Part shown: in pieces, positions 357 through 40,430 of the stretch
How the letters are laid out: each line of letters starts with the position of its first letter
How positions within the stretch are numbered: the stretch's first letter is position 1
Assembly: GCF_964275005.1 (NCBI RefSeq)
Contig: NC_092685.1
Location: forward strand, 29,720,682-29,784,681
DNA: 64,000 nt
Reading direction: 5' to 3'
DNA from: Diadema setosum
Taxonomy: Eukaryota > Echinodermata > Echinoidea > Diadematoida > Diadematidae
Notes under the pieces: generated by a model
What the model was told of the DNA's origin: nothing
Database searches by the model: none
Seen by the model: only the letters and a program-made list of their open reading frames with translations
Program-made: the position numbers and the translations under genes

Positions 357-1556
357 CCTCCAGATGTCGTTCAACAAGACCTTGCGCGTCTCTGGGAATG
401 CGACGGCATTATTATAGGCCATCTCAACTGCCAATCTCTGCCTCCAAAAATTGACGAACTTCGGTTGCTGCTATTCAGGACTAACGTAGACATAATGACG
501 CTAAGTGAGACGTGGCTAAGGAACGGCAACAGGGAGGCAGACTTCGAGGTGGCTGGTTACGAAATAATCGAGCGGCGAGATGGGAAGCCCAACTCAGAAA
601 ACCGTCCACGTGGAGGGGTCATGGTGTACGTCAAGGCAGAGTTGGCAGAGAGATGCAAGTGCCTGAACTGTGACCCTAGCCTTGAGATGGTATGTGTTGA
701 ATTAGACCTTGGTCAACCTGCGAAGCAGACCGCCGCCAAAGGCAGAGCCTCAGCAGCAGCAGCGGCAGGCGCAGCTGCGAGGCACACTGATAAGTGTGAG
801 CAACGCAAGGCACTTCGAATCCTCGACGTTTACGTCCCCCCTGGAACACGCGACCAGATTGCGGCTTTCGAGAAGTTAGTAAGTAACATTCACGAGCTAA
901 AAGCCCACGAGAAATGTGGACTCTTGAACAAGCGAGACGCATCCGCAGATGTTGTGAAGAGAAAGGGGACAAAGTCTGCTGCCAGCAAAGATGCTGGCGG
1001 TACTACCAAAGACAGCAGTGCTTCCACCAAGGGAAAAACATGCCGATGTAAGACAAACTATGTTGTACTCGGAGATTTCAATTTCGACATGAAGCTTGCC
1101 GACGCAGCAGCGGCGCAAAGATCCACAGTAGAATCAAAACTACGAACTCTAAAAGGGATGGAGGAAAGCTGTCAGCTAAAGCAGCTGATCAAGGATCCAA
1201 CTAGAACGGAACGCAGAAGATATTCAAGTAAGGGAGAGGACAATGTGACTGAAAGCATCATCGACTTGATTTACACCGACAACCATACCAAAGTCAAGTC
1301 GGGCGTCGTTCGTGTTTCCCTCAGCGATCATTTCATGGTGTATTGCTCGCTGACTGTCCCTAAGAGGAACTGTACAGGTGGGGCACCCGTCGGGAATCGG
1401 GATCAAGAAGCTCTCCGGAAATTTTCTTCCCAGTATCCAAGATCCAAGATCAACAAAAATGTCTTTCAGTTGATTAAAGATCGCGACTTGGCCCACGCGA
1501 ACAAACAATGGGACGAGTATGATAGACTACGTCATGAGGTAAAGAGGTTGACCTGA
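357..1556 (+). CDS. Gene A, exon 3: LINE-type EEP endonuclease domain (terminal exon)
   Basis: This exon encodes 399 residues ending in TGA and belongs to the endonuclease/exonuclease/phosphatase (EEP) superfamily, closest to endonucleases of CR1/L2-type LINEs. All the expected motifs are visible in order: HLNCQS (metal-binding Asn), SETWL (catalytic Glu), RGGVMVYV, a DVYVPPGT strand, GDFN, IDLIYTD and SDH near the end. Two basic, Ala/Ser/Lys/Gly-rich spacers interrupt the domain, one after the RGGV strand and one before GDFN; LINE endonucleases normally lack them. The frame stops where a LINE would continue to its reverse transcriptase. The start is the 3' splice site CAG|CCTCC, shared with genes B (16303) and C (39243). 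A Met at 303 lies in the same frame, but the homology begins only at the splice site. Activity on DNA is inferred from the motifs. Confidence 0.75.
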   Translation, partial: PPDVVQQDLARLWECDGIIIGHLNCQSLPPKIDELRLLLFRTNVDIMTLSETWLRNGNREADFEVAGYEIIERRDGKPNSENRPRGGVMVYVKAELAERCKCLNCDPSLEMVCVELDLGQPAKQTAAKGRASAAAAAGAAARHTDKCEQRKALRILDVYVPPGTRDQIAAFEKLVSNIHELKAHEKCGLLNKRDASADVVKRKGTKSAASKDAGGTTKDSSASTKGKTCRCKTNYVVLGDFNFDMKLADAAAAQRSTVESKLRTLKGMEESCQLKQLIKDPTRTERRRYSSKGEDNVTESIIDLIYTDNHTKVKSGVVRVSLSDHFMVYCSLTVPKRNCTGGAPVGNRDQEALRKFSSQYPRSKINKNVFQLIKDRDLAHANKQWDEYDRLRHEVKRLT

Positions 1557-1927
1557 GTGATCATCAAGCTGGAAAGAGTCAAGTAGTAATAGAACTCTCC
1601 TTAGAGATAGCGCTAGGTCATCGCTTATTTGGTGGACAATCATAAGAATAACGTTGCCATCCCCTCGTCATTCGAATCTTTTAATTAGATCATCTCAAAG
1701 TTGTTTAGATTCCATATTATTTACTGAAACATGCTCCACTCGAATTGTCCTTTTTTGTCATTGTGATAAACATGATCAATAGACCTTAGTAAAGCATAAT
1801 TATGTTCCTGTATTCGTTTTGAAGTGAGAGTTACACAGGCCTAAATGTTATTTCTCCCATGTTGGGTGTGTTGCAGAAACGTCTAGTCTTCAAAGTCAGT
1901 GTGTACAAGAAGAGCCACGAGTCCATT

Positions 1928-2087
1928 AGTCATACAGCCCACGAGTCATACAGCACATGATTTCGACACTGGCCAAATAAGGCCCATGAGTTCGACATTA
2001 CAACACGGGGCTTATTGTGTCGGTCTCGTAGGCTTTGTTTGCCGAGTTTCGAACTCATGGGATGTATGATTCGTGGGCTGTATGACT
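1928..2087. repeat. Foldback repeat (about 160 bp)
   Basis: Arms of about 40 bp starting GTCATACAGCCCACGA are repeated in inverted orientation with a few mismatches, so the stretch would fold into a hairpin. It looks like a small foldback MITE. No target duplication is evident. Confidence 0.6.
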
Positions 2088-2204
2088 CATGGGCTATATG
2101 ACACATGGTGAGTGTCACATGGTGAGTGTCACATGAAATTCGTGAATTTAAAACATGTACTTTCAAGTTTATATGTGTCATAAGCTACTACAAACCTGAA
2201 AGCT

Positions 2205-2960
2205 GACTCTTAAGATCTAGCATTACAAGAACATTCAGTACATATTCACAGTGTGTTGACAAATCAAACGGGTTGTTTGCTGTATTATCCTACCTCTACG
2301 AGTACTATAAGAGTGGGTACAACGTGATACTCTTTATTCCAAAAGTTCGTTTATCCGAAAAAGAACAAAAAAGTGTTCGTTAATTCGTACATTCGTTGCG
2401 TTATTCCGAAGGTTCGTTATTTTGAAAATTCGTAATTCCGAAAATGAAATAGGGTTGATTATTCCCAAGCTTCGTTGATCCGAAAATGAAAGGAAGGTAC
2501 GTACTGACGAACCTTCGGAATTACAAACGTTAGGCCTATTTCAATTTTTAAAACAAACTTTCGGAATAACGAACCTTCTTTCATTTTTGGATCAACGAAT
2601 CTTTGGTATATCAAACTGTAACCATGAGAGTTAAGTGTATCTGCACTGCCTGAAGTATGCGAATAGTCTTCCTCTCACGGGTTGCCTACAAATCTGTAAA
2701 ACAGTAAGTTATGCGAATTTCGGTACGTGTCTACTCGCCAAAACTTAGAAGCAAATCATTCACTGCTTGGTATTTACGTGCGAATGACATAACTTTATCA
2801 TGTGAGAAAATAGTTCATGTTGAGCAAGGTTGTCTGCTCCCTATAACGCGTTGCAATACAGCACGACTCGAAAGCAATAGGGGTATAATGTCCGTGCACA
2901 TCCCTTCAAGGATGGAACAGCGCATTAGGCTATTACGGGCGACAGGTGAAATACATATCA
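2205..2960 (+). repeat. Paralogous flank downstream of gene A (matches 21015-21460)
   Basis: Interrupted similarity to 21015-21460 is visible through shared blocks around AAGATCTAGCAT, CTACGAGTACT, GTGTATCTGCACT and CAAATCAT. It lies about 0.65 kb after gene A's stop, while its match lies 3.5 kb after gene B's. The duplication that made genes A and B therefore carried 3' flank as well. The foldback at 2326-2612 interrupts this copy only. Confidence 0.6.
2326..2612. repeat. Foldback element built from TTCGTTATTCCGAA units
   Basis: The left and right halves are inverted copies: GATAC...TTCG and GTTGATCCGAAAATGAAAGG on the left, CTTTCATTTTTGGATCAAC and GGTATATC on the right. The subrepeat TTCGTTATTCCGAAGGTTCG recurs in both directions. 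The paralogous flank near 21125 lacks the insert, so this is a true insertion. Confidence 0.65.
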
Positions 2961-3935: not shown

Positions 3936-4629
3936 AATAAGCCAGTCGTAATTAGCCCATTTAGAACACAGGAGCCTATATACAAGTGCATTTGGACAGA
4001 ATGTCCTTTTTGTTTTTGTCAGTTTGATAGGCACTGTGACTTCACTCGTTTTTAAAGCGACATAGCCCAGTTCCGCCGGCCCTGTGTATAACCTTGCCCG
4101 ACGTAACATGCTATATTCAAACAAAGAATTAACCTGTGTAGACCAGGTGACTAGATGGCTCATCAATTTACGCTCGGGGACGCGTCCATTTCATCGTGTT
4201 GCATTGGATGCATTAACAAACCTTCTCTTAGAATTTGAATATAAGTTGTTTATTTTATTTCATATTGTTTGTTTGTTGTACATTGTTCCCTCTATGCATA
4301 AGTACTAGCTTCTGTGGAGACAGTGCTAATGAATCATTATTATTATCATTGTCATTGTTATTATTATTATCATCATCACTGTTATTATCAAGATTGTAAA
4401 ATACTAGTCTTTAGTGAACACTTATTGCTCACAGCTTGGACGCGCAGGTAAGCTCCAAGGATTACGTCATAGATGATAATTACATCGCAGATGCTTATCT
4501 CAGCGAATTTGAAAATCAACATGCCTCATATCACAAAATACTTTTTTTTTCTGCTCATGCGCAGAGTGTATATACTAGTATAAGAACAGAGAGGTGAGAC
4601 AAAAACCTCCCAGATACGAACTGGCTTAT
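3936..4629 (-). mobile_element. MITE family AATAAGCCAG, older interrupted copy
   Basis: It begins with AATAAGCCAGTC and ends with GAACTGGCTTAT, the terminal inverted repeats of the two copies at 4743 and 5191. Internal blocks also match, for example the one around CAAACAAAGAATTAACC and the one around CATCGCAGATGCTTATCTCAG. It is interrupted by about 190 bp, including an ATT-rich microsatellite near 4333-4395, and is the most diverged of the three. Confidence 0.6.
4333..4395. repeat. ATT/ATC microsatellite
   Basis: An imperfect run of ATT, ATC and GTT triplets lies inside the interrupted MITE copy. Confidence 0.7.
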
Positions 4630-4742
4630 ATAGCTAACTTTTACAGTACTATGTTCTCATAGGAAAGAGAATATCATTCCATTCACAGGGTTTTTGTACG
4701 TGTCGCGTGAATTTATGAACAAGTATATACCGTACACATGCT

Positions 4743-5188
4743 AATAAGCCAGTCCGGAGTTCCACTTTGCGCATGAGCAGAAACTAGGTCATTCGGACCA
4801 ACAGGCATGTTGGTTTTTAAATTTACTGGGATAAGCATCTGTGATGTAATGATTATCCATGTAATCCTTATAAATACTGCTTGCCAGCACATCCACCTGA
4901 CAGCAAAAGTGGTATTTGGCAATATCAATAGAAAGAGATTGTCAATACATCCAATGCAAAATAATGAAATGGATGCTTTCTCAAGTGTGAATTGACAGAT
5001 CATTCTGCTCATCTGGTCTACGCAAGTTTATTCTTTGTTTGAACAGGATTGGTGAATCCCATAAATTGTTACGTAAAGCTTATGCATTATGTCGCTCTGA
5101 AAACGAGTGAAGTGCTCCTAACCAACTGAGAAAAAAGAAAGGTCATTCGTACCAATGTGCCCATGAGCTAACTCCGAACTGGCTTATT
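4743..5188 (+). mobile_element. MITE family AATAAGCCAG, copy 2
   Basis: This 446-bp unit is bounded by AATAAGCCAGTCCGG and CCGAACTGGCTTATT, inverted repeats of each other. It has no coding capacity. Its mirror copy follows directly after a two-base GC spacer, giving a palindrome of about 0.9 kb. Confidence 0.7.
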
Positions 5189-5190
5189 GC

Positions 5191-6339: not shown

Positions 6340-9300
6340 TTTAATTGTTATTGAGGGGTCGCGTAACATTTATTTCGATGAATTGTCGTGGCCTAGCGAA
6401 TAGCCAAAAAAGTATGATGTTTGTTGTATTCAAGACACTCATTTTATACCGAGCACTGAGGCAGAAATCCGTAAGGAATGGAAAGGTGAATGTTTTCTTT
6501 CATGTAATACCTCAAATTCAAGAGGTGTCGCCATATCATTTAAAGACACAATCCCAGTAAAAGTTAATAGAGTTCAGATAGATAAAACAGGAAATTTTGT
6601 GATATTAGATTTGAAATTATATGAATATAATCTGACATTTATATCTTTATATGGTCCGAATACTGATAAACCTGATTTTTTTTGTTGATCTTCAAAAGAT
6701 TATATTAGAATTCGAAAACCCACATACTATCCTTTGTGGTGATTGGAACTTAGTTCAGGATACAACCCTCGATACATATAATTATGTACATGTAAATAAC
6801 CCTAGGGCCAAAAAACAATTAGACACAATGAAAAATGATTTAAGTTTATGTGATCCACGGAGAATATGTAATCCGGATGAAAGATGTTATACGTGGCGGC
6901 AACAAAATCCCTTTAAGCAAAGTAGATTAGACTTTTTTTTCAATATCCTCCGAATTGCTCTCTTTAGTTTGTAACACTGATATTTCTTCAGGTTACCGTA
7001 CTGATCATGCTAAAGTTTCTCTCGGTTTAAATCTTAATGAGTTTAAACGGGGACCAGGGTTTTGGAAATCTAATAATATTTTATTGAAAGATGAAATATA
7101 TGTTCAGAAAATTAAACAAATTATAAAAGATACAATTATATTTTATGCAAAGGGAAATGTCCAGTTTGATTACAATGACAACGTAATTGGTGAATGTCAG
7201 CTGACTGCTAATAATCAGTTATTTTTTGAAACTTTAATGATGATGATACGTGGGGAAACTATTTCTTACGCTTCTTATGTTAAGCAAAATATTAACAGAG
7301 AAAAGGAATTGGAGAAAAATATAGAAGATTTAGAAGAAAAATTATTATTGTGTAATGATAAAAGTGAAATATTAGATGAAATGAATAAACAGAAAGAAGA
7401 ATTTGAAATATTACGCTCAAAAGAAAATGAAAGAATCGCAATGAGAAGCAGGATTAAGTGGATGGAATTAGGAGAGAAGCCCTCAAAGTATTTCTTAACC
7501 TTGGAAAAACAGAACAATGTTAATAGACAAATTCGTCAGCTCTTTTGTGAAAATGATATTATTATGAATCAGTGATATATACAGAAAGAAGTGTTTCAGT
7601 TTTATTCCTGTTTTTATGAAGAAAAAGAAACCACAGATGTAGATTTAGACTTATTATTGTCATCTTCTGACATACCAAAATTATCACAACAAATGTCGTT
7701 ATCATTAGAAGGTCCCTTAAATGAAGAAGAGGTATACTCTGTGTTAAAAAATATGAAATGTAATAAATCTCCCGGATTAGACGGTTTTACCGTGGAGTTT
7801 TATCGTGTTTTTTGGAAGGAAATTAAATCTTTTTTGTTAAATTCCTTAAATTATGCTTATTTTTCAGGACAAATGTCGGCAGCACAAAAAATGGGAGTAA
7901 TCACATTAATTCCAAAAGCAAATCAACCCCGACAGTTTCTAAGGAATTGGCGTCCAATTTCTTTATTGAATGTTAAACTGGCATCTGGTTGTATAGCAAA
8001 CAGATTTAAGAAATTTTTATCATATTTGATACATGGAAATCAAACCGGATTTTTGGAAGGTCGATACATTGGTGAAAATATTCGTTTACTGTATGATATA
8101 TTTTTATATACAGAGTTACATGATATACCAGGTTTGTTACTTTTAATTGACTTCGAAAAGGCTTTTGATTCTGTGTCTCATAAGTTTCTTTTTTTCATAA
8201 GTTTTTAGATTTTTTTAACTTCTGCCAATCTATGAAAAAATGGGTTCAGTTGTTTTACAACAATGCTACTTCCAGTGTTTTAGTGAACGGTTATTTTACA
8301 GATAGATTCAAAATAGAACAGGGCTGTCGACAAGGGGATCCCTTGTCACCCTACCTTTTTCTGTTGGTCAGTGAAATTCTTGGAATTATGATTAGGCACA
8401 AGAATTCTGTGGTTGGGTTGCAAATTAATGAAAAAAAAATTTAAAGTATTACAATACGCAGATGACACACTTTTAACACTCAAAGGATCAGATCAAGATC
8501 TAAAAGATGCTCTTGAGATTTTTGATACTTTTGCTAATATATCGAATTTAAGAATTAACCCCAGAAAGACTAAAATAATATGGATAGGAAAGAATCGGAA
8601 TTGTAGAATTAAATTATTGGAAGATTGTAATTTTGACTGGATTTTTCAGGGTAGGTACTTTAGGTACCTGGGAATAGAATTTTCAGTTAAATTATATGAA
8701 ATGGTTGAACAAAATTATTGTGAAAAAATGTAAGATATTACAAATACAATGACCTCCTGGTCTAAACGATCACTTACTGTTTTAGGAAGAATTACTGTAG
8801 TTAAATCATTATTGATGTCAAAATTAAATTATTTGTTGTTATCACTTCCTGAACCAAATTTTAAAACATTAACAGATATAAATCGTTGTTTTTATTCGTT
8901 TATATGGGAAAATAAACCCGATAAAATAAATAGAAATCAAATGTGCCAGTTATATTGTCATGGTGGTACTAAAAAGATTGATATTTTCATACATGCTAAA
9001 TCTCTTAAAATATCCTGGATCAGAAGGTTTATTTGTGATCCGCAGACTGAAAATTACACGTTCCACATGTTCTGTTCTTTCTTGCCCCAACCAGTATCGT
9101 TTCATTTATTTATGGGGTCATTGTACTACAAAAAACTTGCCAATGTAATGCCTAATGATTTTTGGAAAGAGGTACTTTTGGCTTTTTCAGAATTTCTACA
9201 AATCAATACACATGATAATTTGCAAGCCAGCCTCTTTGGAATAATCCTTTGATTAAAATGAAATTTAACACTGTATATTTTAAGTCTTGGTGTAAAAAAG

Positions 9301-10355
9301 GTGTACGTTTTATAAATGACTTGTTAGATAATGATGGAAAATTTCTTTCATATTTTGAATTTCAGAGGAAGTTTGGTATGCAAACTAACTTTCTTCAGCA
9401 CGGTGGATTGTGTAATTCTATCCAATCATTTGCAAAAAAACTGCATGTCGAAAATAACAGACCCTTTTATTCCTCATGGTTTAAATGTAATACTGAAACA
9501 TAAGAAAGGTTGTTCTGATATTTATCAAACGTTGTTAAGACACACGTCAAAACATTGTAACAGTTTTGTTAAGTGGAGTAGTATATTGGATCTTGATGAT
9601 GAAACATGGTCTTTATACTGTTTAATTCCTTTTCAATCAACTATTGATATTAATATGAGGTGGTTTCAATTTAAGATTCTCAATAGAATATTATACATGA
9701 AACACGCTCTTTTAGAATTTGGTTTTGTAACAGATAAAAAGTGTACGTTTTGTAATGACAGTGAGGAAACCATAATGCATATATTCTGTTCATGTCCTTA
9801 TTCAAATAATATATGGAATAAGTTTGAGCGATGGTTACTTTTGAAGATAGATAAACAAATTGTATTTACAAACCAACATAAGCTATTCGGATTTTATGGT
9901 CTCAACAACAGTGCATTAAACTGTATGATGATTGTTGTAAGAAGAGAAATTTTTTCAGCGAAATTAAAAAAAAAAAAACCTGTTCCGTCATTCGAACATA
10001 TAATGTCTGAGATAAAATGTTATTTTGAGATGGAAAAATGTATAAGTCAAATGAATAATAGAGAACAAAACTTTGTGAAAAAATGGGCTTTATTTATTAA
10101 GTGCTTTTGAATGTTTAATTAAAAATACATGATATTCATAGTGTTTTCAGGGTTATTTCTGCCAATAAAATAAAAAAATTATATAAGTTATATGTTGTAA
10201 AAAAAAGTTAAAGAAATTGTGTTATTATATGTACAAGTGCAGTAGGCCACTGCTTGTCGATAACCAAATTATTATTCTGTTTTGTATTTCAAAAAAATAT
10301 TTGTAAATGTGACTTTCTGAATATGTGTATGAATAAAACACCCTGTGGAAGGGAA
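6340..10355 (+). mobile_element. Tx1-like (L1 group) LINE, 5'-truncated and decayed
   Basis: A non-LTR retrotransposon on the plus strand. The endonuclease, reverse transcriptase and Cys-containing C-terminal region of ORF2 lie in order, followed by a 3' UTR with AATAAA near 10333 and an A-rich end. No ORF1 is seen upstream of the endonuclease, so it looks 5'-truncated. I cannot identify a target-site duplication. Its A+T content is higher than that of the neighbouring EEP exons. Confidence 0.85.
6345..10110 (+). pseudogene. Tx1-like LINE ORF2 (endonuclease-reverse transcriptase), broken
   Basis: The endonuclease starts near 6360 with ISMNCRGL, followed by QDTHF, LYGPN and GDWN. The reverse transcriptase spans about 7730-8600, with KSPGLDGF, LIPKA, NWRPISLL, GFLEGR, LIDFEKAFDSV, GCRQGDPLSPYLF and the catalytic QYADD. 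The C-terminal region carries a CxxC...HxxxxC motif near 9745-9800. The frame is broken repeatedly: shifts in homopolymer runs near 6680, 6935, 8190 and 8440, another near 9240, and in-frame stops at about 7573 and 8731. A deletion near 6410 removes part of the endonuclease. The Tx1 assignment rests on the GDWN, FEKAFD and QYADD motifs and the C-terminal Cys motif. It cannot make a working protein. Confidence 0.85.
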
Positions 10356-12510: not shown

Positions 12511-12640
12511 ATGCCGAGATCACAGAATAGTGGATTTTGGAGCGTGAAATCTGGAATTTTTCTTCTCCCTCCGTCGTATCGCAATGGCGACACGTACCCG
12601 AACGAGAAGAAGCGCACTGAATTGGAAAGAAAACGATATG
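12511..12640 (+). CDS. Gene B, exon 1: N-terminal domain
   Basis: It encodes 43 residues plus one base (phase 1). The start ATG at 12511 aligns with the ATG of gene C exon 1 (26442). The exon ends in ATATG|GTAAGT, a strong donor. Conserved with gene C: Trp-Thr/Ser-Val-Lys near the start, FLLP, GD-YP and a final Tyr-Gly. The family is not recognised. It joins in frame to exon 2 at 15309. Confidence 0.65.
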
Positions 12641-15308: not shown

Positions 15309-15541
15309 GAACTTGCTCCTTGAAAAACGGACTTGACCGCACCTGGACGTGTGAAGAATTGGAGGAGAATATCATCACCAAATACTCACGACATGCCGAT
15401 ATCCTACGAGTCACCGGGGTCCTCTTCGCCAAGCTAGAATCGAGTTCCAAACAAATCAGCGTGCATCGCTTCCTGCCTCTTCAGACCGTGGCCGAACTTG
15501 AGGCCATGCATGGTAGCGGCGTCTTGGTACTGCTGTTCAGG
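15309..15541 (+). CDS. Gene B, exon 2: conserved N-terminal domain
   Basis: The acceptor TGTAG is followed by GA, which completes the Gly codon begun in exon 1. The exon then encodes 77 residues and ends TTCAGG|GTAGGT in phase 0. Compared with gene C exon 2 (27378-27613) the conserved positions are DRTW, a run of acidic and hydrophobic positions, HAD-LR, G-LFAKL, HRFLP/HQFLP, QTV, MHG and a hydrophobic LLF/ILF end. Alternating hydrophobic strands around one helix would suit a small alpha/beta, perhaps ubiquitin-like, fold, but that is a guess. Neighbouring intron sequence is not conserved between B and C while the exon is, which argues that it is coding. Confidence 0.7.
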
Positions 15542-15669: not shown

Positions 15670-18330
15670 GTTTGTGTTCTGCGCTCTTTATATGTGTGTG
15701 TGTGTGTTTGTATGTTTTGGAAGGTGTATGTATGTCTGTGTGACTTTTGAAGTCCGATGCTTTCTTCTCCGGGAGAGGTCAGTTTTCATCTAAAACAAAC
15801 CCAGTGCAGAAGATGAAATTCTATTCATTGGGGAGTGGCATCAGAGAAAATCACGAACATTATTTGCAAAGATACTTGGTCTATTTTAACCGTAACCTCA
15901 CCAGTAATATTTCTTTATGCCAACAAACTTTTTGTGTTTTCTGATCGTTGATTCATTGGCTATTCATTTCCTAAACCATTGTTTCCTTTAGATTCACCGG
16001 TATCCTCATCACAGCCACATAGGTCTGCTTTACAAAAAAAAAAAAAAAAAAAAAAAGGTGGATAATTCCAGATTGTTTGATTCATTTGGTGCTTCGCAAA
16101 CATCGAATCTTATAATCCAAGAATGGATGAAAGCAAAAAACAAGAATTTTGAGGACGAATGTTAATTCTGAATAAAAGTAAATATATTTGACTATGGTTG
16201 TGCTTATTCTCGTTCTCTGGCTACTGCAATGTCATTATATACCTAAAAACCACACACAAGCTCATGTTAACACTCAAATCATGTACTCCTTATGATCAAC
16301 AGCCTCCAGATGTCGTTCAACAAGACTTAGCACGTCTCTGGGAGTGTGACGGGATGACTATAGGCCATCTCAACTGCCAATCTCTACCTCCAAAAATCGA
16401 CGAACTTCGATTGCTGCTATTCAGGACAAACGTAGATGTGATGACGCTAAGCGAGACGTGGCTAAAGAGAAGCATCAAGAATGATAGTCTTGCCGTGGCT
16501 GGTTACAGGATAGTCGCGAGGCGAGATGGACCCGAAAAGTCGATGTATACCCAGCACCCTCGAGGAGGAGTTATGGTGTACGTCAAGGAGGAGTTAGAAG
16601 AGAGAGGCATTCATGCTCGCGAGTACGTGTATGACACCAGCCTGGAAGTGGTATGTGTCGAATTAGATTTTGATCAACCGATGAAGCACAGAAAAAGTAC
16701 CAAAGAGAGTGGACAAACCACCTGCAAAGGCAGAGGCAGAGCGTCAGCAGCAGGCGCAGCTGCAAAGCAACCTGAACGATGCCAACAGCGGAACGTACTT
16801 CGAATTCTTGACGTTTACATCCCTCCTGGCACACGTGACCAGATTTCGGCTCTCCAGAAGTTACACAGTGACATTAGTGATTTAAAAGAACAAGCACAGT
16901 GCAGGCCATTACGTGAGCAAGGCACCCCTGAAAATGTTCAGGAAGACAAGGGGACAAAATGTCGCTCAAGCAAAGGAGCTGGCGGTACCACCAAAGGCAG
17001 AGGTAGTTCTTCCAAAGGACAAAAATGTCGATGTAAGACACAATATGTCATACTAGGAGATTTCAATTGTAACATCCAGGATGCTGACGCGGCCGCAGAG
17101 CAGAGATCCACTGTAGAAGCAAAACTACGAACTCTCAAAGAGATAGAAGACAGCTGTCATCTCAAGCAGCTGATCAAGGATCCAACGAGAACGGCGCGTA
17201 GAAAATATGAAAGCAAGGGAAAAGTAAACGTGAGTGAAACCACCATCGACTTGATCTACACCGACGGCAATGCCAAAGTCAGGTCCGGCGTCATCCGGGT
17301 CTCCTTGAGCGATCATTTCATGGTGTACTGCTCTGTGACTGTTCCTGGGGGCAAAAAGAAAAATGTTTGCAAAGACAAGAAATTTACAGGGAATCGGGAC
17401 CAAGAAGCTCTCCGGAAATTTTCCTCCCAGTATCCAAGATCCAAGATCAACAAGAACGTCTTTCATTTGATGAAAAATCGTGACTTGGCGCACGCGAACG
17501 GCGAATGGGACGACTATGATAGACTGCGTCATGAGGTCAAGAGGTTAACCTGAGGGATCTCTTCAGTTTTCTGGCGATTTTTCTTCGTTAGGACAAGCAG
17601 TGGTGTAACCTCTCTGTCATTGGCACATGTAGTCGTCCCTTATTTGAATTTCGTACAAGATGGTAGTGTTCAGTTTGCCGTAAATCCAATCGAATTGTAA
17701 ATGACTTGCACCTCAAAAATCGTTGAAAAACGGCATTAAGGTCTTTTTTTTTTGGGGGGGGGGATGAGTTGAAAGATTATGACCAATTTATTTGACCCTA
17801 CTACGGTCTTTTCACTGCCATGATGACACTTCATACTGGGCCAACTTATGACTGTGTTTCGTGCTTGAATGTGACGTAAGACTCAGAAGTTCTTGAGAAA
17901 TATATTCTGCAAAGGTATCATAAACGATGCGTTCCTATAAATCCATGTAACTATGTATGAAAAAGTGAAAGGTATTGACGTTCACCTGCAACGGTATAGT
18001 TGCTTTGTACCAGAGAGGTGGGTTCCGCGCGTTCTCTTCCCACCTCCCTGTTTGTACCCACCATTGATCGCACTGTGCTGGCTCCAGGCTTAAATTGAAA
18101 CCATCGCAAGTACTATACGGGGAAAGCTACTGCTTGAACTCTCATACATTCTAGTCACACGAACGTTCGAATATTGTTCTTTTTTTAATCACCACTCTAT
18201 CTTTAACTCACCTTAGCATTATTGTAGCCAAATCTTGATAACGGGGAATTTCCAGTTTGTTTGTTTATTTGTTTGTTCGCTTGTTTGTTGCTGTTGTCGT
18301 CGTCTTTTTTTTAACAGAGGTTTTTATATT
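15670..18330 (+). repeat. Paralogous block around gene B exon 3 (matches 38620-44400)
   Basis: About 2.6 kb, running from the TG-rich stretch in intron 2 through the EEP exon to about 0.78 kb past the stop, matches the region around gene C exon 3. Similarity is clear in the non-coding parts as well. The gene C version carries two insertions absent here: a TTAA MITE and a 2.9-kb element. This copy therefore gives the empty sites. Confidence 0.8.
16303..17553 (+). CDS. Gene B, exon 3: LINE-type EEP endonuclease domain (terminal exon)
   Basis: It encodes 416 residues; with exons 1 and 2 the predicted protein has 537. In that numbering the EEP motifs are Asn145 in HLNCQS, Glu172 in SETWL, GDFN around Asp374 and Asp458-His459 in SDH, so the metal-binding and catalytic set looks complete. 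Two Lys/Ser/Gly/Ala-rich spacers (after FDQP, and between LREQ and GDFN) enlarge the domain beyond the usual 220-240 residues of LINE endonucleases. A conserved tail (NRDQEALRKFSS, YDRLRHEVKRLT) ends at the stop. There is no reverse transcriptase. The acceptor AG at 16301-16302 is in phase 0, matching exon 2. A CR1/L2-type LINE origin is inferred from motif order; the cellular role is unknown, possibly DNA or RNA cleavage directed by the N-terminal domain. Confidence 0.8.
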   Translation, partial: PPDVVQQDLARLWECDGMTIGHLNCQSLPPKIDELRLLLFRTNVDVMTLSETWLKRSIKNDSLAVAGYRIVARRDGPEKSMYTQHPRGGVMVYVKEELEERGIHAREYVYDTSLEVVCVELDFDQPMKHRKSTKESGQTTCKGRGRASAAGAAAKQPERCQQRNVLRILDVYIPPGTRDQISALQKLHSDISDLKEQAQCRPLREQGTPENVQEDKGTKCRSSKGAGGTTKGRGSSSKGQKCRCKTQYVILGDFNCNIQDADAAAEQRSTVEAKLRTLKEIEDSCHLKQLIKDPTRTARRKYESKGKVNVSETTIDLIYTDGNAKVRSGVIRVSLSDHFMVYCSVTVPGGKKKNVCKDKKFTGNRDQEALRKFSSQYPRSKINKNVFHLMKNRDLAHANGEWDDYDRLRHEVKRLT

Positions 18331-22438: not shown

Positions 22439-22706
22439 CATTGCAACTGATTGACAAATTGCCCTACATCGACGTAAATAAGCACTGAATTGATCAGTGT
22501 TTTAGTAGTAGCCATGATAAAAAATCATGGGCGTACATACTCGAGCAGGATTCGAACCTACGACCTCCTGATCACCGGACAGGCGTCATCTCCACTAGAC
22601 CACCGAGCTTTCGCCCGACAGCAAGTGTCGGTTCTAATCCTTATAGCATGCAGCGGGTACTGCTTTGTTATTCAAATTCATGAATTTCTTCCGTCGAGAT
22701 GTTTTT
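22439..22706 (-). mobile_element. tRNA-derived SINE, unit 2 (tandem)
   Basis: A near-identical 268-bp copy directly abutting unit 1; I see one difference (AAATTG for AAGTTG near 22456). Such head-to-tail identity suggests recent unequal exchange rather than independent insertion. Confidence 0.8.
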
Positions 22707-22716
22707 CATTGCAACT

Positions 22717-22773
22717 GTAAGGATTAGAACCGACACTTGCTGTCGGGCGAAAGTTTGGTGGTCTAGTGGAGAT
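22717..22773 (+). mobile_element. SINE head fragment, inverted
   Basis: The first 57 bases of the same SINE (from TAAGGATTAGAACC to the A box) lie in the opposite orientation and abut the minus-strand LINE. This marks a rearrangement junction. Confidence 0.7.
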
Positions 22774-24739
22774 ATGAATATATTCATTTAAATCCAGTAA
22801 TACAGTTGTTGTTGAATGCATTGGGCGAAATCCAGATTGACAATCACTTAATAAGTTATTTGAAATGAAGTAATCATACACTTGCTCATATACAGCTTTC
22901 TCAAAAATTTTCATGACGTGACATATAACAGAAATGGGTCGATAATTGCTAACATTGTCCTTATTTCCACTCTTGAATACAGGTGTAACTTTAGCCTTTT
23001 TCCAACCAGAAGGTATAATTGATGAATGAAGTGACAAATTAAACAAATAAGTAAGCGGTTCGGAGATAAAGGACGAAGCAATCTTTAAAAGATACGGGTG
23101 TAGGTTGTCAAGACCACATGATTTACCACTGTCAAGTTTAAGCAATTCCCTTTGTACAAATTCACATGAAACATCCGAGAAAATAAAAGACTTATTAATA
23201 AAAGGGGTTTGGTGAGACGAGTCTATCCGAGCACTTTTAACCCCGTGGGTAAAAAAGCAATTGAATTCGTTTGCGATTTCAGAAGCATCAGCAGTAACAA
23301 CTCCACCGTTACGTAATTCGACGCAGTGACTCTTTTTGTTACCGGTCAACCTTTTCAAATTCTTCCATGTGTTACGGGGATCGTTGGCATGATCAGTAAA
23401 TTCTTTAGTGAAATAATTTCTTTTCAAATATTTATTCAAATTATTGACTTTATTTCGTACTTTCTGATATTCAGTCCAATAAGAATCAAGGTGTGTTTCA
23501 TCAAACTTCTTCTTCATATAATCACGTTGACGTGCTAATGCAATGTACTCCTCATTTATCCAGGGTGCTCTTCCCGACCTTTTCCTAACAGAAACAACAG
23601 GTGCATGTTTATCACACAATGCCGTAAATTTTTGCAAAAAAATACTCCAAGCGGATTCTATATCATTATTTTCGTAAACATTTTCCCAGCACGTATCTTC
23701 ACAATCTCTCAAAAAAATGATCTGTACAAAAATTTCGAAATGATCGACACTTACTAACGAACGGCTTTTACGAACTATTGAATCTTTCAGATTTACATAT
23801 ACAAGAGAATGATCACTTATTCCAATCAATATAACACCTTTTCTGATAAAACGCTTACATTTAGGTAATATAATCAAATCAATACATGTTCTGCTATTTG
23901 GTGTAATTCTAGTGGGTACATTAATTACTTGATCCAATTGAAATAATGTACATAATTCATTAATATTCTGACTCAGTCTACTTTTCACCAACATATTGCA
24001 ATTAAAATCTCCCAAAATCACTATATTATTTGATATCAAATTAACTTCATCAATATTCCTCTCCAATTCTGCAAAAAAAGTCAGCTGGAGAATTCGGAGC
24101 CCGGTAAAGGACACAGATAAATAAAGAACTTGCATTTTTTATTTGTAATTCTATCCAAAGAAGTTCAAGTCCGTCACTTTCAAAGTCTAATCTGCGTACA
24201 TATGACAGGGAGGATTTGATGTAGCAACAAACACCTCCACCTTGGGAATTTCTATCTCTCCTCTCTATTTCATAGCCATCAACAGACAGATCAATACATA
24301 CATCATTATCTAACCACGTTTCAGAAATTGTAAATACATCAAATGGATTTGACATGAGATACTGACAAATGTCGTCGACTTTACCCCTTAAACTTCGAAC
24401 ATTAAGATGAGAAATATTGAGACCATTATTACATCCAAATATGTTTTCTTCAGTATGATAATTGTGAGGTGGGGACGAGTTTACTGTGGCCCGAATTGAC
24501 TCAGTCTGTTTCTCATGAGATACATTGAAAAAAGGTAATTCCTGAAAAATACAAAGTGAACAAATCCAATCCTTCTCACTTTGAAAGGTTTTGAGTGATA
24601 CTCCACACTTCACATGACACCAGTGCAAGCATTTAACGCAAAGAATACTATTTTGATTATTTGTAACTGATTTTTTACATATGATACATGGGTATATGTG
24701 ACTAGAACGAAGGTTCGAATTCAAAGGTTCAACAGTCAT
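22774..24739 (-). pseudogene. CR1-type LINE ORF2 (PHD finger, endonuclease, partial reverse transcriptase)
   Basis: Read on the minus strand from 24739. An N-terminal PHD-type finger (CIICKK...CVKC-HWCH-KC...CSLC) is followed by an EEP endonuclease with HLNVRSLR, SETWLD, RRDRNSQGGGVCCY, YRAPN, GDFN, IDLI and SDH. A linker (RAPWINEEY, NDPRNTWKNLK) and the reverse transcriptase N-terminal part (GKSCGLDN, VTPVFKSG, NYRPISVI, SGFRPMHSTT) come next. It has one frameshift, in an A run near 24080. The reading stops before the catalytic YADD, at the SINE junction, so the 3' half is missing. Unlike the stand-alone EEP genes, this endonuclease lacks basic spacers and runs on into a reverse transcriptase. 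Confidence 0.85.
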
Positions 24740-24782
24740 ATTGTATGATGAGACGAGGTGTAGTTTAACTTGGTTTGATTTC

Positions 24783-25363
24783 TCACTTACGCTTGCTTCT
24801 CACTCCTTCGGTTTGGTCCAGTTTCTCGATGTCAGCAAAGGACGCGATTGGCACTTTCTTGTTGTCGTGTGTGAGAACTGTTATGCGACCGTCCGATGTC
24901 CACACTTTCTTGACTCTCTCGTGCTCGCGGAGTTCAGCAACGGTACGTTGGCGCGTCGATGTCAGGTCTTCATGGACGTAGATGTTCGATCCTTTGAAGT
25001 CCGCTCGTTTTCTGTAGATGGCCATCCTCTTGTTGTAACTCGTGAACTTCATGATGATCGGGCGCGTTTTCGCTCCATCCCAGTCTCTTGGCGTGACTCG
25101 ATGACTGCGGTCGATGTGAAGGGGGTGATGTCGATGTGGAGCTTTTCTCGCACTTTGTCAACAATCAGCTGATCGGTGTTTTCGTCCTTCAGCTCCGTGA
25201 TGCCATGGAAACGTAGACAGTTCCGGCGAGTGTATTGTTCCTGTTCTTCACAGATTTGTTCCAGACGATCGACTTTTCCCTGAAGCCGGTTGACAGTCTC
25301 GGTCAGTGACGCAACCTGCTGTTTTTGTTGATGAAGGTCAAGTTCAATGGCTTTGTAGACATC
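24783..25363 (-). pseudogene. LINE ORF1 (coiled coil plus RRM-like), 5'-truncated
   Basis: Minus strand, upstream of the ORF2 above. It shows a heptad-like stretch with QQVASLTETVNRLQG, then EEQEQYTRRNCLRFHGI, the RRM entry typical of L1-type ORF1 proteins, then NIYVHEDLTSTRQ and VWTSDGRITV. A frameshift in a C run near 25122 separates the two halves. The element stops at 25363, where duplicated host sequence begins. Confidence 0.75.
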
Positions 25364-26131
25364 CTATGACGAGCATCGTTACGATATGAGCGTGCAGAAC
25401 AAAGAAAAGTATCAATATGCTGTACAATCATAGTCGTCGCACTCGTTACGCGGGAGTATTTTAGTAGGTGTAAAATATGGCGTCAAAGAGCACAGGCGTT
25501 TGGACAGTTAAAAAAAGTTTTCCTCCTCCCATCTGAGTTTAAGAAGGGGGATGTATATCCACGAAGTGAGCAGGAAAAATCAAACTAAAAGCAAGAGGAT
25601 ATGGTATGTTTCTAACTGTATTTGTGTCTCACACATGTAGAACGGAATATTACCTGTTGATCTATAACTTGCGCGTGTGACGCCATTGGATATGATATCC
25701 CTCCATTTTGTTTTTTCCAGTTCATTCTATTCAACCGTTCATCAAGTTACAATGTGATTATCTGCGGATTTCTTTTTTTAACTTGCACGTGTGACGTCAT
25801 TGAATGTGATATCGTTCCAGTATATTTTCTTCAGTTTGTTTTATTCATCTTTTCATGTAATTATAATGTATAGCTGTTGAATGATTGTATAAGCTTGAAC
25901 CATCGTTCAAGTATGCACATGAGAAGATAGTATCGTGTATATGTTATGAGAAAGGGTTGCATTTCTCAGAATAATGCTGACACGTCAAAAGTGTAAAGTA
26001 GCTCTCGATATATGTCTATTTGTCACTTGGAAGGGTAGTTCCTTATCTTTTCTCCCTCTAGTTATTGGCATACCTTAATCCCAACCAGACCTGCACAGGC
26101 CAGATAATAACAACGAATTTTGAATTAATAG
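25364..26131 (+). repeat. Duplicated 0.77-kb block, copy 1
   Basis: It matches 26331-27106 almost base for base, from TATGACGAGCATCG to AATAGAGCTA. It contains a broken copy of gene C exon 1 and part of intron 1. The left edge is the LINE ORF1 end; the right edge passes into telomere-like repeats. Confidence 0.85.
25477..25603 (+). pseudogene. Broken duplicate of gene C exon 1
   Basis: Nearly identical to the exon at 26442-26568 and of the same length (127 bases), with the same donor. One extra A in an A run near 25512 and one fewer near 25577 shift the frame between them, giving an early stop. It cannot encode the N-terminal domain; it could still act as an alternative first exon or promoter. 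Confidence 0.8.
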
Positions 26132-26330: not shown

Positions 26331-27106
26331 ATGACGAGCATCGTTACGATATGAGCGTGCAGAACAAAGAAAAGTATCAATATGCTGTACAATCATAGTC
26401 GTCGCACTCGTTACACGGGAGTATTTTAGTAGGTGTAAAATATGGCGTCAAAGAGCACAGGCGTTTGGACAGTTAAAAAAGTTTTCCTCCTCCCATCTGA
26501 GTTTAAGAAGGGGGATGTATATCCACGAAGTGAGCAGGAAAAAATCAAACTAAAAGCAACAGGATATGGTATGTTTCTAACTGTATTTGTGTCTCACACA
26601 TGTAGAACGGAATATTACCTGTTGATTTATAACTTGCGCGTGTGACGCCATTGGATATGATATCCCTCCATTTTGTTTTTTTCCAGTTCATTCTATTCAA
26701 CCGTTCATCAAGTTACAATGTGATTATCTGCGGATTTTTTTTTTTAACTTGCACGTGTGACGTCATTGAATGTGATATCGTTCCAGTATATTTTCTTCAG
26801 TTTGTTTTATTCATCTTTTCATGTAATTATAATGTATAGCTGTTGAATGATTGTATAAGCTTGAACCATCGTTCAAGTATGCACATGAGAAGATACCATC
26901 GTGTATATGTTACATGAGAAAGGGTTGTATTTCTCAGAATAATGCTGACACGTCAAAAGTGTAAAGTAGCTCTCGATATATGTCTATTTGTCACTTGGAA
27001 GGGTAGTTCCTTATCTTTTCTCCCTCTAGTTATTGGCATACCTTAATCCCAACCAGACCTGCACAGGCCAGATAATAACAACGAATTTTGAATTAATAGA
27101 GCTAAT
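26331..27106 (+). repeat. Duplicated 0.77-kb block, copy 2
   Basis: Second copy of 25364-26131. It holds the intact exon 1 of gene C and part of intron 1, with a handful of substitutions and short indels relative to copy 1. Confidence 0.85.
26442..26568 (+). CDS. Gene C, exon 1: N-terminal domain
   Basis: It encodes 42 residues plus one base, in phase 1 like gene B exon 1. It starts at the ATG following AAAAT and ends ATATG|GTATGT. Shared with gene B: Trp-Thr-Val-Lys, FLLP, KKGDVYP against RNGDTYP, and the final Tyr-Gly. The upstream 110 bases (26217-26330) are present only before this intact copy and are a candidate promoter segment. Confidence 0.65.
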
Positions 27107-27377: not shown

Positions 27378-27613
27378 GATTAAGTGACTCCGAGAATAGA
27401 TTCGACCGTACCTGGAAACGTGCACAAATGGAGGACAAGATCCTTCAAATGTATCCTCAACATGCAGACCGTCTCCGACACAACGGAATCCTGTTTGCCA
27501 AACTAGACAAAAATGCACACCGGATACACGTTCATCAGTTCTTGCCCTCCCAAACTGTGAACGACCTTAAGGTCATGCACGGGCGCGCCGCCATCTTGGT
27601 GATTCTGTTCAAG
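27378..27613 (+). CDS. Gene C, exon 2: conserved N-terminal domain
   Basis: The acceptor TGTGTAG is followed by GA, completing the Gly codon from exon 1. The exon encodes 78 residues and ends TTCAAG|GTACTG in phase 0. It aligns with gene B exon 2 over its whole length with conserved FDRTW, HADRLR, GILFAKL, HVHQFLP, QTV and MHG; the family is unrecognised. The next compatible phase-0 acceptors are the 22-residue cassette exons from 34644 on, or the EEP exon at 39243. Confidence 0.7.
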
Positions 27614-34643: not shown

Positions 34644-34709
34644 AGTCCAGGAGACAGTGCTGCTAATGTTGCAAGTTACCCTTCTGCTGCTCCATCGTCT
34701 CTAGCTGAG
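34644..34709 (+). CDS. Gene C cassette exon 1 (22 residues)
   Basis: Exactly 66 bases between the acceptor CATCGAACAG and the donor GAG|GTAAGG. It starts and ends in phase 0, so it fits between exon 2 and the EEP exon without breaking the frame. It encodes a Ser/Pro/Ala-rich linker: SPGDSAANVASY, then PSAAPSSLAE. No fold is expected; it may lengthen the spacer between the N-terminal and EEP domains. Use in transcripts is untested. Confidence 0.55.
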
Positions 34710-35408: not shown

Positions 35409-35474
35409 AGGCCAGGAGACAGTGCTGGTAATGTTGCAAGTCACCCTTCTGCTGCTCCATCGTCTGTAGCCGAG
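35409..35474 (+). CDS. Gene C cassette exon 2 (22 residues)
   Basis: 66 bases in phase 0 after CATCGGACAG, with the donor GAG|GTATGG. It encodes RPGDSAGNVASH followed by PSAAPSSVAE. It opens the first unit of the 1036-bp tandem repeat. Confidence 0.55.
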
Positions 35475-36444: not shown

Positions 36445-36510
36445 AGTCCAGGAGACAGTGCTGGTAATGATGCAAGTTACCCTTCTGCTGATCCATCGTC
36501 TGTAGCCGAG
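36445..36510 (+). CDS. Gene C cassette exon 3 (22 residues)
   Basis: 66 bases in phase 0, with the same splice signals as cassette 2. It encodes SPGDSAGNDASY followed by PSADPSSVAE; two substitutions to Asp distinguish it from cassette 1. It is identical to cassettes 4 and 5. Confidence 0.55.
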
Positions 36511-37480: not shown

Positions 37481-37546
37481 AGTCCAGGAGACAGTGCTGG
37501 TAATGATGCAAGTTACCCTTCTGCTGATCCATCGTCTGTAGCCGAG
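37481..37546 (+). CDS. Gene C cassette exon 4 (22 residues)
   Basis: Identical to cassette 3, exactly 1036 bases further on. Phase 0 at both ends. Confidence 0.55.
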
Positions 37547-38516: not shown

Positions 38517-38582
38517 AGTCCAGGAGACAGTGCTGGTAATGATGCAAGTTACCCTTCTGCTGATCCATCGTCTGTAGCCGAG
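38517..38582 (+). CDS. Gene C cassette exon 5 (22 residues)
   Basis: Identical to cassettes 3 and 4, with the donor GAG|GTATGG. It is the last copy: the tandem repeat ends about 50 bases later, at the start of the block shared with gene B. Confidence 0.55.
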
Positions 38583-39242
38583 GTATGGGATTGTTGGCAC
38601 TCCATTTTTTGTCGGTTTCATTCTTACTGTGTTGCACTCTTTATGTGTGTGTGTGTGTGTGTGTGTGAGTGTATGAGTGAGTGTGTGTCTGTGTGTGTCT
38701 GTGTGACTTTTAACGTCCGATGCTTTCTTGTCCGTGAGAGGTCAGTTTTCACCTAAAACAAACACAGTGCCGAGGATGAAATATTATTCATTGGGGAGTG
38801 GCATCAAAGAAAACCACGAACATTATTTGCAAAGATACTTAGTCTATTTTAACCTTAACCTCACCAGTAATGTCTCTTTATGCCAACAAATGTTTTGTGT
38901 TTTCTAATTGTCAATTCATTGGGTATACTTTTCCCAAACCATTGTTTCCTTTAGATTCACGGGTATCCTCATCAAAGCTATGTAGGTCTGCTTTACAAAA
39001 AAGCGATGTGGTGGCTGATTCCAGGCTGTTTGATTCATTAATTGTTGCTTCGCACACATCGAATCTTATATAATTCAAAGATGAATGAACGAAAAACAAG
39101 ATTTTTGAGGACGTAAATATCATATTTTGCTGTGGTTGTGCTTATTCTGGTTCTCTGGCTACTGCAATGTCATATTATATATCTACAAACCACACACAAG
39201 CTTATGTAAACACTCAAGTCATGTACTCCTTATGATCAACAG

Positions 39243-40430
39243 CCTCCAGATGTCGTTCAACAAGACCTAACACATCTCTGGGAGCGCGACGGCATTACTA
39301 TAGGCCATCTCAACTGCCAATCTCTGCCCCCCAAAATCGACGAGCTTCGATTGCTGCTATTCAGGACAAACGTAGATGTGATGACGCTAAGCGAGACGTG
39401 GCTAAAGAGAAGCATCAAGAATGATAGTCTTGCCGTGGCTGGTTACAGGATAGTCGCGAGGCGAGATGGACCCAAAAAGTCGATGTACAGCCAGCGCCCT
39501 CGAGGAGGAGTTATGGTGTACGTCAAGGAGGAGTTAGACGAGAGAGGCATTCATGCTCGCGGGTACGTGTATGACACTAGCCTGGAGGTGGTATATGTCG
39601 AATTAGATTTTGATCAACCGACGAAGCACAGAAAAAGTACCAAAGAGAGTGAACAAAACACCTGCAAAGGCAGAGGCAGACCTTCAGCAGCAGACGCAGC
39701 TGCAAAGCAACCTGAAAGATGCCAACAACGGACCGTACTTCGAGTTCTTGACGTTTACATCCCTCCTGGAACACGTGACCAGATTTCGGCTCTCCAGAAG
39801 TTACGCAGTGACATTAGTGATTTGAAAGAACAAGAACAGTGTAGGCCAATACGTGATCATAGCACCCTCGCAGATGTTCCAGAAGACAGGAGGACAAAAT
39901 GTCGATGTAAGACACATCATGTCATAATAGGAGACTTCAATTGCAACATCCAGGATGCTGACGCGGCCGCGGAGCAGAGATCCACTGTAGAAGCAAAACT
40001 GCGAACTCTCAAAGAGATAGAAGACAGCTGTCATCTCAAGCAGCTGATCAAGGATCCAACGAGAACGGCGCGTAGAAAATATGAAAGCAAGGGAAAAGAA
40101 AAGGTGAGTGAAACCACCATCGACTTGATCTACACCGACGGCAATGCCAAAGTCGGGTCCGGCGTCATCCGGGTCTCCTTGAGCGATCATTTCATGGTGT
40201 ACTGCTCTGTGACTGTTCCTGGGGGCAATATGAAAAATGTTTGCAAAGACAAGAAATTCACAGGGAATCGGGACCAAGAAGCTCTCCGGAAATTTTCCTC
40301 CCAGTATCCAAGATCCAAGATCAACAAGAACGTCTTTCATTTGATGAAAAATCGTGACTTGGCGCACGCGAACAGCGAATGGGACGACTATGATAGACTG
40401 CGTCATAAGGTCAAAAGGTTAAAGGCATAA
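39243..40430 (+). CDS. Gene C, exon 3: LINE-type EEP endonuclease domain (terminal exon)
   Basis: It encodes 395 residues after the phase-0 acceptor AG at 39241-39242. It is very close to gene B exon 3 and keeps HLNCQS, SETWL, RGGVMVYV, DVYIPPGT, GDFN, IDLIYTD and SDH. The second basic spacer before GDFN is about 20 residues shorter than in gene B. An in-frame TAA upstream of the acceptor, where gene B reads TTA, rules out translation from the upstream Met seen in gene B. The last codons are altered by a MITE insertion: RLT-stop became RLKA-stop, with the stop supplied by the MITE. Exons 1 and 2 with this exon give 516 residues, plus 22 per cassette used. Confidence 0.8.
   Translation, partial: PPDVVQQDLTHLWERDGITIGHLNCQSLPPKIDELRLLLFRTNVDVMTLSETWLKRSIKNDSLAVAGYRIVARRDGPKKSMYSQRPRGGVMVYVKEELDERGIHARGYVYDTSLEVVYVELDFDQPTKHRKSTKESEQNTCKGRGRPSAADAAAKQPERCQQRTVLRVLDVYIPPGTRDQISALQKLRSDISDLKEQEQCRPIRDHSTLADVPEDRRTKCRCKTHHVIIGDFNCNIQDADAAAEQRSTVEAKLRTLKEIEDSCHLKQLIKDPTRTARRKYESKGKEKVSETTIDLIYTDGNAKVGSGVIRVSLSDHFMVYCSVTVPGGNMKNVCKDKKFTGNRDQEALRKFSSQYPRSKINKNVFHLMKNRDLAHANSEWDDYDRLRHKVKRLKA

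Follow-up and report, generated by a model that had tools for sequence, protein, structure and literature searches.

A 64,000-nucleotide stretch of the Diadema setosum genome (here called the window) contains three exons coding for a LINE-type APE/EEP endonuclease, which raises the question of whether they are remains of transposable elements or the last exons of host genes. A match to bindin, too, indicates a sea-urchin source.

Exon structure of the array and the N-terminal domain

Exon prediction by comparison revealed three neighbouring genes on the + strand, A, B, and C, each composed of an exon 1 ending in phase 1, an exon 2 ending in phase 0, and an endonuclease exon that carries the stop. 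The predicted exons 1 and 2 of gene A (+ strand) sit just left of the window, at positions 3961-4090 and 7961-8193 of locus L014 (window -6039 to -5910 and -2039 to -1807), and its last exon lies inside (357-1556, +; 399 aa, TGA stop). In gene B, exon 1 (12511-12640, +) supplies the start ATG and 43 codons plus 1 nt ahead of a GTAAGT donor, exon 2 (15309-15541, +) codes for the N-terminal domain between an AG acceptor and a GTAGGT donor and ends in phase 0, and the last exon (16303-17553, +) codes for 416 aa of endonuclease followed by TGA. The corresponding + strand exons of gene C are located at 26442-26568 (start ATG, 42 codons plus 1 nt), 27378-27613 (N-terminal domain, phase 0 end), and 39243-40430 (endonuclease, 395 aa, TAA stop).

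Splice sites and phases agree between the genes in sequence comparison. By eye, in four alignments, the edges of A/B similarity coincided with the predicted splice sites; in exon 1, which has 61% amino acid identity between A and B, similarity was confined to the exon. The initial annotation had stated that the phase 1 and phase 0 exons of B and C join in frame to an EEP domain and stop, and that the EEP exon occurs three times behind a common acceptor. Both statements held: the predicted joined frames are open (537 aa plus stop in gene B; exons 1 and 2 of gene C in frame with its EEP exon), gene A gives a frame of 520 aa plus stop, and the acceptor TCAACAG/CCTCCAGATG (slash at the splice junction) is common to A, B, and C. 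As judged from these comparisons, the three-gene, three-exon array is confirmed as real, and its exons would be spliced together in vivo.

The N-terminal domain had been described as new, which is correct in a limited sense: no Pfam family scored above cut-off (stray matches at E 0.036-0.33 were judged to be chance), and gene B exon 2 had three matches in the 913-Mb genome, all in the array, with gene C exon 2 returning the same three places at E<=10. In viral contigs, 0 of 64 pattern matches to the domain were confirmed. The fold looked for was beta-beta-alpha-beta-beta-(helix)-beta (beta-grasp/ubiquitin-like); exon 2 alone was modelled as helix-helix-strand-strand-helix-strand (pLDDT 73.6). 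Foldseek yielded 162 matches to this model at E<=10, and among the 50 listed many were of ubiquitin, RA, FERM, or RAWUL type (best E 1.0, none at 0.001; query-normalised TM 0.17-0.52). These matches hint weakly that the domain may have a beta-grasp/ubiquitin-like fold.

Relation of the endonuclease exon to LINEs

Pfam PF03372 scored above cut-off in all three genes, and PF14529 did so in A and B, with gene C just below (26.5 versus 27.4 bits). Residues N24, E51, Y172, D253, N255, D316, S336, D337, and H338 (numbering of the gene B exon) were invariant in the three genes and 9 LINE rows. Retention of the Asn, Glu, Asp/Asn, and Asp-His motifs was thus borne out, the catalytic residues being identical across A, B, and C and common to the genome's own LINEs. 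As the initial annotation had noted, the frame ends ahead of any reverse transcriptase (RT): all three frames stop past the start of the linker with no RT in frame. The tail past the EEP domain resembles LINE linker (13.5 bits in A, 13.1 in C, and 11.3 in B; E 0.007-0.035), and 1 of 2000 shuffles of the gene B tail scored above the real one; this likeness is suggestive.

A model of the EEP domain, of middling quality (mean pLDDT 68), had LINE-1 endonuclease or ORF2p at Foldseek ranks 1-11 (E 1.1e-11 to 1.5e-9; query-normalised TM 0.42-0.49), in a search that leans to LINEs because 9 of the 12 rows of the model's alignment are LINEs. By sequence, the gene B EEP exon matched no solved structure at E<=0.1, and a three-gene EEP profile run against solved structures (E<=10) found no EEP structure and a single unrelated match (E 0.48). 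In a phylogeny of the EEP domain, built with 17 LINE rows hand-picked from 31 LINE loci (L001-L008 and L024-L046; the rest were near-copies or broken) and without cellular EEP, the genes formed a clade (100/99) placed among the nearest LINEs. The stem of this clade is long (1.08), which may reflect a long-branch join, and no single LINE was resolved as its sister.

When the EEP exon was compared with the 913-Mb genome (best 100 of 1022 candidates scored), it matched the three array genes, one frameshifted relic, and then 104 rows at <=47% identity; 5 of 5 LINE frames scanned from these rows carry endonuclease plus RT. Within the same best 100 of 1022, the exon therefore forms three tandem copies and one relic, not a dispersed multicopy family, and no RT-bearing repeat family carrying the array's EEP frame, the alternative raised in the initial annotation, was seen genome-wide. 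The relic, at C1:42.149 Mb, was rejected as a fourth gene, being a partial copy with frameshifts and stops. It is nearest to gene A (80% identity, 997 bp), and gene B, 76% identical to gene A, stays open whereas the relic at 80% is broken. In the 50 kb surrounding the relic, no match to five N-terminal-domain exon peptides fell below E 0.12. With the RT-side pieces of 23 LINE frames, no match was obtained behind gene C as far as the end of the window, nor within 10 kb behind the relic. For A and B, the only matches behind the genes were other LINEs at 6.6-10.1 kb (+ strand) and 22.7-24 kb (- strand), plus short pieces about 3.9-5 kb behind gene B; RT fragments from other LINEs do occur some 3.9-6 kb behind these two genes.

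Purifying selection and competing readings

Exons 2 and 3 are under purifying selection. In comparisons between paralogues of one genome (NG86), dN/dS was 0.36 (A-B), 0.40 (A-C), and 0.465 (B-C) for the EEP exon and 0.24, 0.27, and 0.29 in the three pairwise comparisons of exon 2, all below 1. The synonymous excess in the EEP exon gave p=2e-13 (A-B), 2e-10 (A-C), and 0.005 (B-C) in Fisher tests on rounded counts. In neutral simulations with substitutions only, 0 of 5000 copies of the gene B frame stayed open at A/B divergence and 267 of 5000 at B-C divergence; the B-C comparison alone is weak evidence for selection. Gap lengths divisible by three between EEP exons were dropped as evidence, because codon alignment forces them.

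With its catalytic site intact and apparently selected, the endonuclease has therefore probably been adopted by the host as a protein of its own. We assign a probability of about 0.73 to the reading that the array is a captured LINE endonuclease retained as a host gene and probably catalytic. The LINE-like sequence, tree, fold, early stops, kept exon structure, dN/dS of 0.24-0.47 (exons 2 and 3), and catalytic residues all support the earlier suggestion that a LINE endonuclease was captured and is under selection. Selection by itself does not establish catalysis, and it could retain the EEP fold for binding, not cutting. A domesticated non-catalytic protein, keeping the fold for nucleic-acid or partner binding, would suit the two long basic, low-confidence loops (gene B residues about 126-160 and 202-239), which are absent from the LINE rows and suggest nucleic-acid binding; we nevertheless consider it fairly improbable, as these loops differ among the genes and one is largely deleted in gene C, whereas A, B, and C have the same catalytic motifs. 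It is very unlikely that the exons are fossil LINE fragments with chance open frames and no functional gene. Many transposable-element pieces do lie in the region, and a decayed copy exists, but dN/dS is well under 1, none of the neutral copies was open at A-B divergence, similarity is bounded by splice sites, and the EEP exon is not dispersed (best 100 of 1022 candidates).

The EEP domain of TDP2 follows a ubiquitin-related (UBA-like) N-terminal domain, an arrangement that the array may resemble; one fold is common to all EEP enzymes, many cellular EEPs are in the Foldseek list, and the tree covers the array genes and LINEs. Even so, derivation of the exon from a cellular EEP enzyme of TDP2, APEX, or nocturnin type is barely credible, given that the genome matches opened were LINEs with RT (5 of 5 scanned), that the best solved-structure matches were to LINE-1 (with a LINE-leaning alignment), and that the tail resembles LINE linker. 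Two adjacent genes, with N-terminal exons unspliced to the endonuclease exon at least in gene C with its 11.6-kb gap, might be proposed from the in-frame ATG upstream of the acceptor in the endonuclease exons of A and B and from the far greater B/C divergence in exon 2 (dS 1.35) than in the endonuclease exon (dS 0.095). However, the two upstream ATGs do not align, gene C carries a stop directly upstream, A, B, and C have the same phase and acceptor, A/B similarity drops upstream of the acceptor, and the unequal divergence would arise because the B/C endonuclease block was copied; we regard this arrangement as highly unlikely.

Proposed origin and known counterparts

For the preferred reading of a captured, host-retained endonuclease, we propose that an APE-type endonuclease domain and the start of the following linker came from a LINE whose broad group, which we take to be CR1/L2-like, still has members in the genome. 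The captured domain would have become the terminal exon of a host gene, with exons 1 and 2 coding for the small N-terminal domain; tandem duplication would then have given A, B, and C, and between B and C the endonuclease block would later have been copied or homogenised. The proteins would most likely cut DNA as Mg2+-dependent phosphodiesterases (nicking endonucleases) and would have lost the role of priming reverse transcription, and the N-terminal domain, tentatively beta-grasp/ubiquitin-like, would set partner, location, or control. A further reading, conceivable but doubtful, makes the proteins a controlled host nuclease of a sea-urchin lineage: a tandem family, its linker variable in gene C, whose ubiquitin-like domain is coupled to a working APE-type nicking enzyme and which serves programmed DNA nicking or acts against mobile DNA. 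The defence role mentioned in the initial annotation is possible, with support limited to the nuclease-like domain.

The array combines, at low copy number, an endonuclease of LINE origin with a host-type N-terminal region, the fusion being by predicted splicing. Titles by Iwashita (2003, 2006, 2009) cited in PMC7284322 describe an RTE-1 endonuclease domain in the ruminant bucentaur paralogue bcntp97 (p97Bcnt), and an excerpt of PMC4161310 (2014) cites the bucentaur exon as a coding exaptation. As far as these titles and this excerpt go, bcntp97 resembles the array in that a LINE endonuclease was recruited as a host coding exon following tandem gene duplication (PMC7284322, PMC4161310). The same excerpt names L1TD1 as the only gene described to have arisen de novo from a non-LTR element, and by its account host genes with a LINE endonuclease seem rare (PMC4161310). 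Unlike bcntp97, the predicted array protein consists of the small N-terminal domain and a complete endonuclease and nothing else; the two also differ in host gene and N-terminal domain, LINE type (RTE versus CR1/L2-like here), and phylum. L1TD1 is likewise a LINE-made host gene, but comes from ORF1, lacks an endonuclease, and belongs to mammals. Human LINE-1 endonuclease (ORF2p) shares the fold (Foldseek rank 1); compared with the LINE ORF2p endonuclease, the array genes have two long inserted basic loops and three exons, with no RT in frame, and number three copies plus a relic. TDP2 shares an EEP fold match, but the array EEP is LINE-like and its N-terminal domain bears only a weak resemblance to a ubiquitin-like beta-grasp, against a UBA-like domain in TDP2. 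If the preferred reading is true, this invertebrate case with intact catalytic residues and purifying selection would suggest that a host can domesticate a LINE endonuclease as a protein of its own; the array also offers a defined protein for studying the cutting specificity of such a domain and the means by which random genome nicking is prevented.

Peculiarities of gene C

A common stop position in all three EEP exons, as first described, was not found: A and B end in KRLT-TGA, and gene C receives its last two residues and TAA from a 349-bp insertion (40423-40771, no strand assigned) with imperfect ~14-bp inverted ends and, by eye, TTAA at 40419-40422 and 40772-40775. Sequence matching the gene B 3' flank resumes 3' of the insertion, which is presumably a piggyBac-type MITE. 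Gene C may further contain up to five additional 66-nt exons (phase 0/0, + strand) between exon 2 and the EEP exon. The candidates are located at 34644-34709 (AG..GT borders), 35409-35474 (within a 1036-bp tandem repeat), 36445-36510, 37481-37546, and 38517-38582. Neither gene A nor gene B showed a counterpart in its last intron, where the best alignments agreed at 28 and 30 of the 66 positions. These linker exons may be incidental, because the 1036-bp repeat, from position 66 of its unit onwards, is similar to a dispersed repeat, and the match takes in the last ~22 nt of the exon. A ~966-bp tandem duplication has also left a broken, frameshifted duplicate of gene C exon 1 at 25477-25603 (+ strand; end approximate).

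Structure of genes A, B and C

Genes A, B and C lie in tandem on the forward strand. In each, exons 1 and 2 encode a small N-terminal domain (N-domain) and exon 3 an APE-type endonuclease (EEP) domain. In gene A, exons 1 and 2 are located just left of the window (positions 3961-4090 and 7961-8193 of fetched locus L014) and the endonuclease exon at 357-1556. The three exons span 12511-12640, 15309-15541 and 16303-17553 in gene B, and 26442-26568, 27378-27613 and 39243-40430 in gene C. Exon 1 ended in phase 1 and exon 2 in phase 0 in all three genes. The predicted joined frames of A (520 aa) and B (537 aa) have a single terminal stop, and that of C is open with or without five candidate 66-nt linker exons between exon 2 and the endonuclease exon.

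Comparison of genes A and B established the gene structure. As judged by eye from alignments, similarity started at the start codon and broke at the donor in exon 1, started at the acceptor and dropped past the donor in exon 2, and dropped upstream of the acceptor and past the stop in exon 3. Similarity bounded in this way by predicted splice sites, start and stop is expected of real exons and not of a copied LINE fragment. The initial annotation had placed the stop at the same position in all three endonuclease exons, which held for A and B (both ending in KRLT-TGA), but not for C. There, a 349-bp element with TTAA at both sides breaks the frame just before the KRLT-TGA-type stop, so that the last two residues and a TAA stem from this element; B-like 3' flank resumes beyond it.

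In the last intron of gene C, an exon-like open stretch of 66 nt in phase 0 (SPGDSAGNDASYPSADPSSVAE type) occurs five times between 34623 and 38628, mostly within ∼1036-bp tandem repeats, and the repeat unit carrying them overlaps a dispersed genome repeat.

Copy number and relationship to LINEs

The genes are of low copy number in the genome searched (912.68 Mb, 102 contigs; the window is C1:29720682-29784681). Bindin, the sperm protein of echinoids, had a Pfam match in this genome (E 2.9e-54, with one in-frame stop) and in 0 of 14 control genomes, which indicates a sea urchin. Exon 2 of gene B had three matches, every one within the array, and gene C exon 2 found the identical three places at E<=10. 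For the endonuclease exon, 1022 candidates were obtained, of which the best 100 were scored and yielded 111 rows: four were B, A and C (C split in two pieces), and three were a relic, a decayed copy of this exon (C1:42149124-42150089). The relic was closest to A (80% nucleotide identity across 997 bp) and frameshifted; a search of 50 kb of surrounding sequence gave no N-domain. It lies (L049:3497-4540) close to a spectrin-repeat-like coding stretch on the minus strand that, by eye, resembles dystrophin/utrophin.

The remaining 104 rows, from which 23 loci (L024-L046) were fetched, had identities of at most 47%. Among the best 100 of 1022 candidates, no repeat family combining this EEP frame with a reverse transcriptase (RT) was seen. 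All five LINE frames scanned with Pfam encoded endonuclease and RT, and three of them had a PHD-finger match below cut-off. Using RT-side pieces of 23 LINE frames, tblastn detected no RT behind gene C or within 10 kb downstream of the relic. The matches behind A and B were to two other LINEs, both of which carry an endonuclease piece of their own, and to short RT-side fragments ∼3.9-5 kb behind B.

Phylogeny was one line of evidence for a relationship to LINEs. A maximum-likelihood tree of 20 rows (the three genes and genome LINEs) grouped A, B and C in a single clade (support, 100/99) nested among the nearest genome LINEs and apart from L001, L002, L003, L004 and L007, rows from the best PF14529 matches. 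The stem of this clade was long (1.08 changes per column), with an ambiguous sister LINE and a long-branch warning from the program. In alignments with LINE frames, the endonuclease exon has retained the residues preceding the first motif (PPDVVQQDLARL versus DDPVQIELNRL in the LINE L035) and a tail resembling the LINE linker, with ∼40 fewer residues in between (46 versus 86-91). Against a profile of seven LINE linkers, the tails of A, C and B scored 13.5, 13.1 and 11.3 bits; 1 of 2000 shuffles of the B tail scored above B, and none of 2000 above A or C. This likeness is suggestive of LINE origin, not strong.

An AlphaFold2 model of the endonuclease exon adopted the EEP fold (mean pLDDT, 68; pTM, 0.72); two basic loops, unstructured in the model, have no counterpart in LINE rows. 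Foldseek ranks 1 to 11 were LINE-1 endonuclease or ORF2p, a ranking to be read with caution because 9 of the 12 rows given to AlphaFold2 were LINEs; AP endonucleases, DNase1L3, TDP2 and nocturnin followed. The active site is intact: nine catalytic-type positions, as assigned from their roles in LINE-1, were identical across all 12 rows (three genes and nine LINEs). Tree, Foldseek ranking, LINE-like tail and frames that end without an RT of their own support the proposal of a captured LINE endonuclease.

Selection, N-domain and history of the genes

Selection on the paralogues was established using Nei-Gojobori dN/dS, which was not near 1. Values for A-B, A-C and B-C were 0.36, 0.40 and 0.465 in the endonuclease exon and 0.24, 0.27 and 0.29 in exon 2; exon 1 gave 0.50 for A-B (43 codons). 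Synonymous excess was significant in the endonuclease exon (p=2e-13, 2e-10 and 0.005, respectively) and in exon 2 of A-B (p=5e-6). In substitution-only simulations, 0/5000 neutral copies were still open at A-B divergence versus 267/5000 at B-C divergence, so the A-B comparison bears the weight.

Gene C has an old exon 2 (dS of 1.35 against B and 1.52 against A), whereas its endonuclease exon is close to B (dS, 0.095). B and C differed by 5.3% in this exon, 13.4% in the preceding intron and 9.6% in the 3' flank. Since B/C similarity reaches into intron and 3' flank, the endonuclease block has probably passed from one gene to the other, by copying or conversion, after the genes had separated.

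The N-domain had been called new. In favor of this, no Pfam family scored above cut-off and exon 2 had genome matches only in the array. Exon 2 alone (three rows; pLDDT, 73.6) was modeled as helix-helix-strand-strand-helix-strand, and many of the 50 Foldseek matches listed were of ubiquitin, RA, FERM or RAWUL type, but the best E was 1.0. If exon 1 contributes a strand (GIFLLPP), the fold may be a beta-grasp, which we regard as a lead only.

Precedent and neighboring elements

The protein would be spliced in vivo and would cut DNA using a metal ion, like LINE endonucleases; priming of reverse transcription would be impossible for it. A defense role for the three genes would be a guess. LINE-endonuclease host genes are a known kind: a ruminant bucentaur paralogue, likewise a host gene with a LINE endonuclease exon, reportedly gained an RTE endonuclease exon following tandem duplication (work cited in PMC7284322 and PMC6794283; PMC4161310). 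The sea urchin case appears to be new: titles and abstract openings in the open-access literature searched yielded no LINE-endonuclease gene in sea urchins or other echinoderms, and passages of PMC5753468 and PMC13228809 describe none.

Several other elements occur in the window. Between A and B lies a broken LINE (6636-10110) with an endonuclease-like piece (by eye) and RT pieces (tblastn). A decayed minus-strand LINE of a family other than that of genes A, B and C (22678-25363) has PHD-like, endonuclease and RT matches, all below cut-off; upstream of it, a frame with a coiled coil looks ORF1-like by eye. An open frame of 435 aa (45233-46540), which had no Pfam match, includes a retropepsin-like stretch (by eye) and is probably what remains of an LTR retroelement. 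At 53985-55976, a ∼163-bp repeat is present in about ten tandem copies, and repeats of ∼570-600 and ∼860 bp alternate at 58594-62270, with open-frame fragments.
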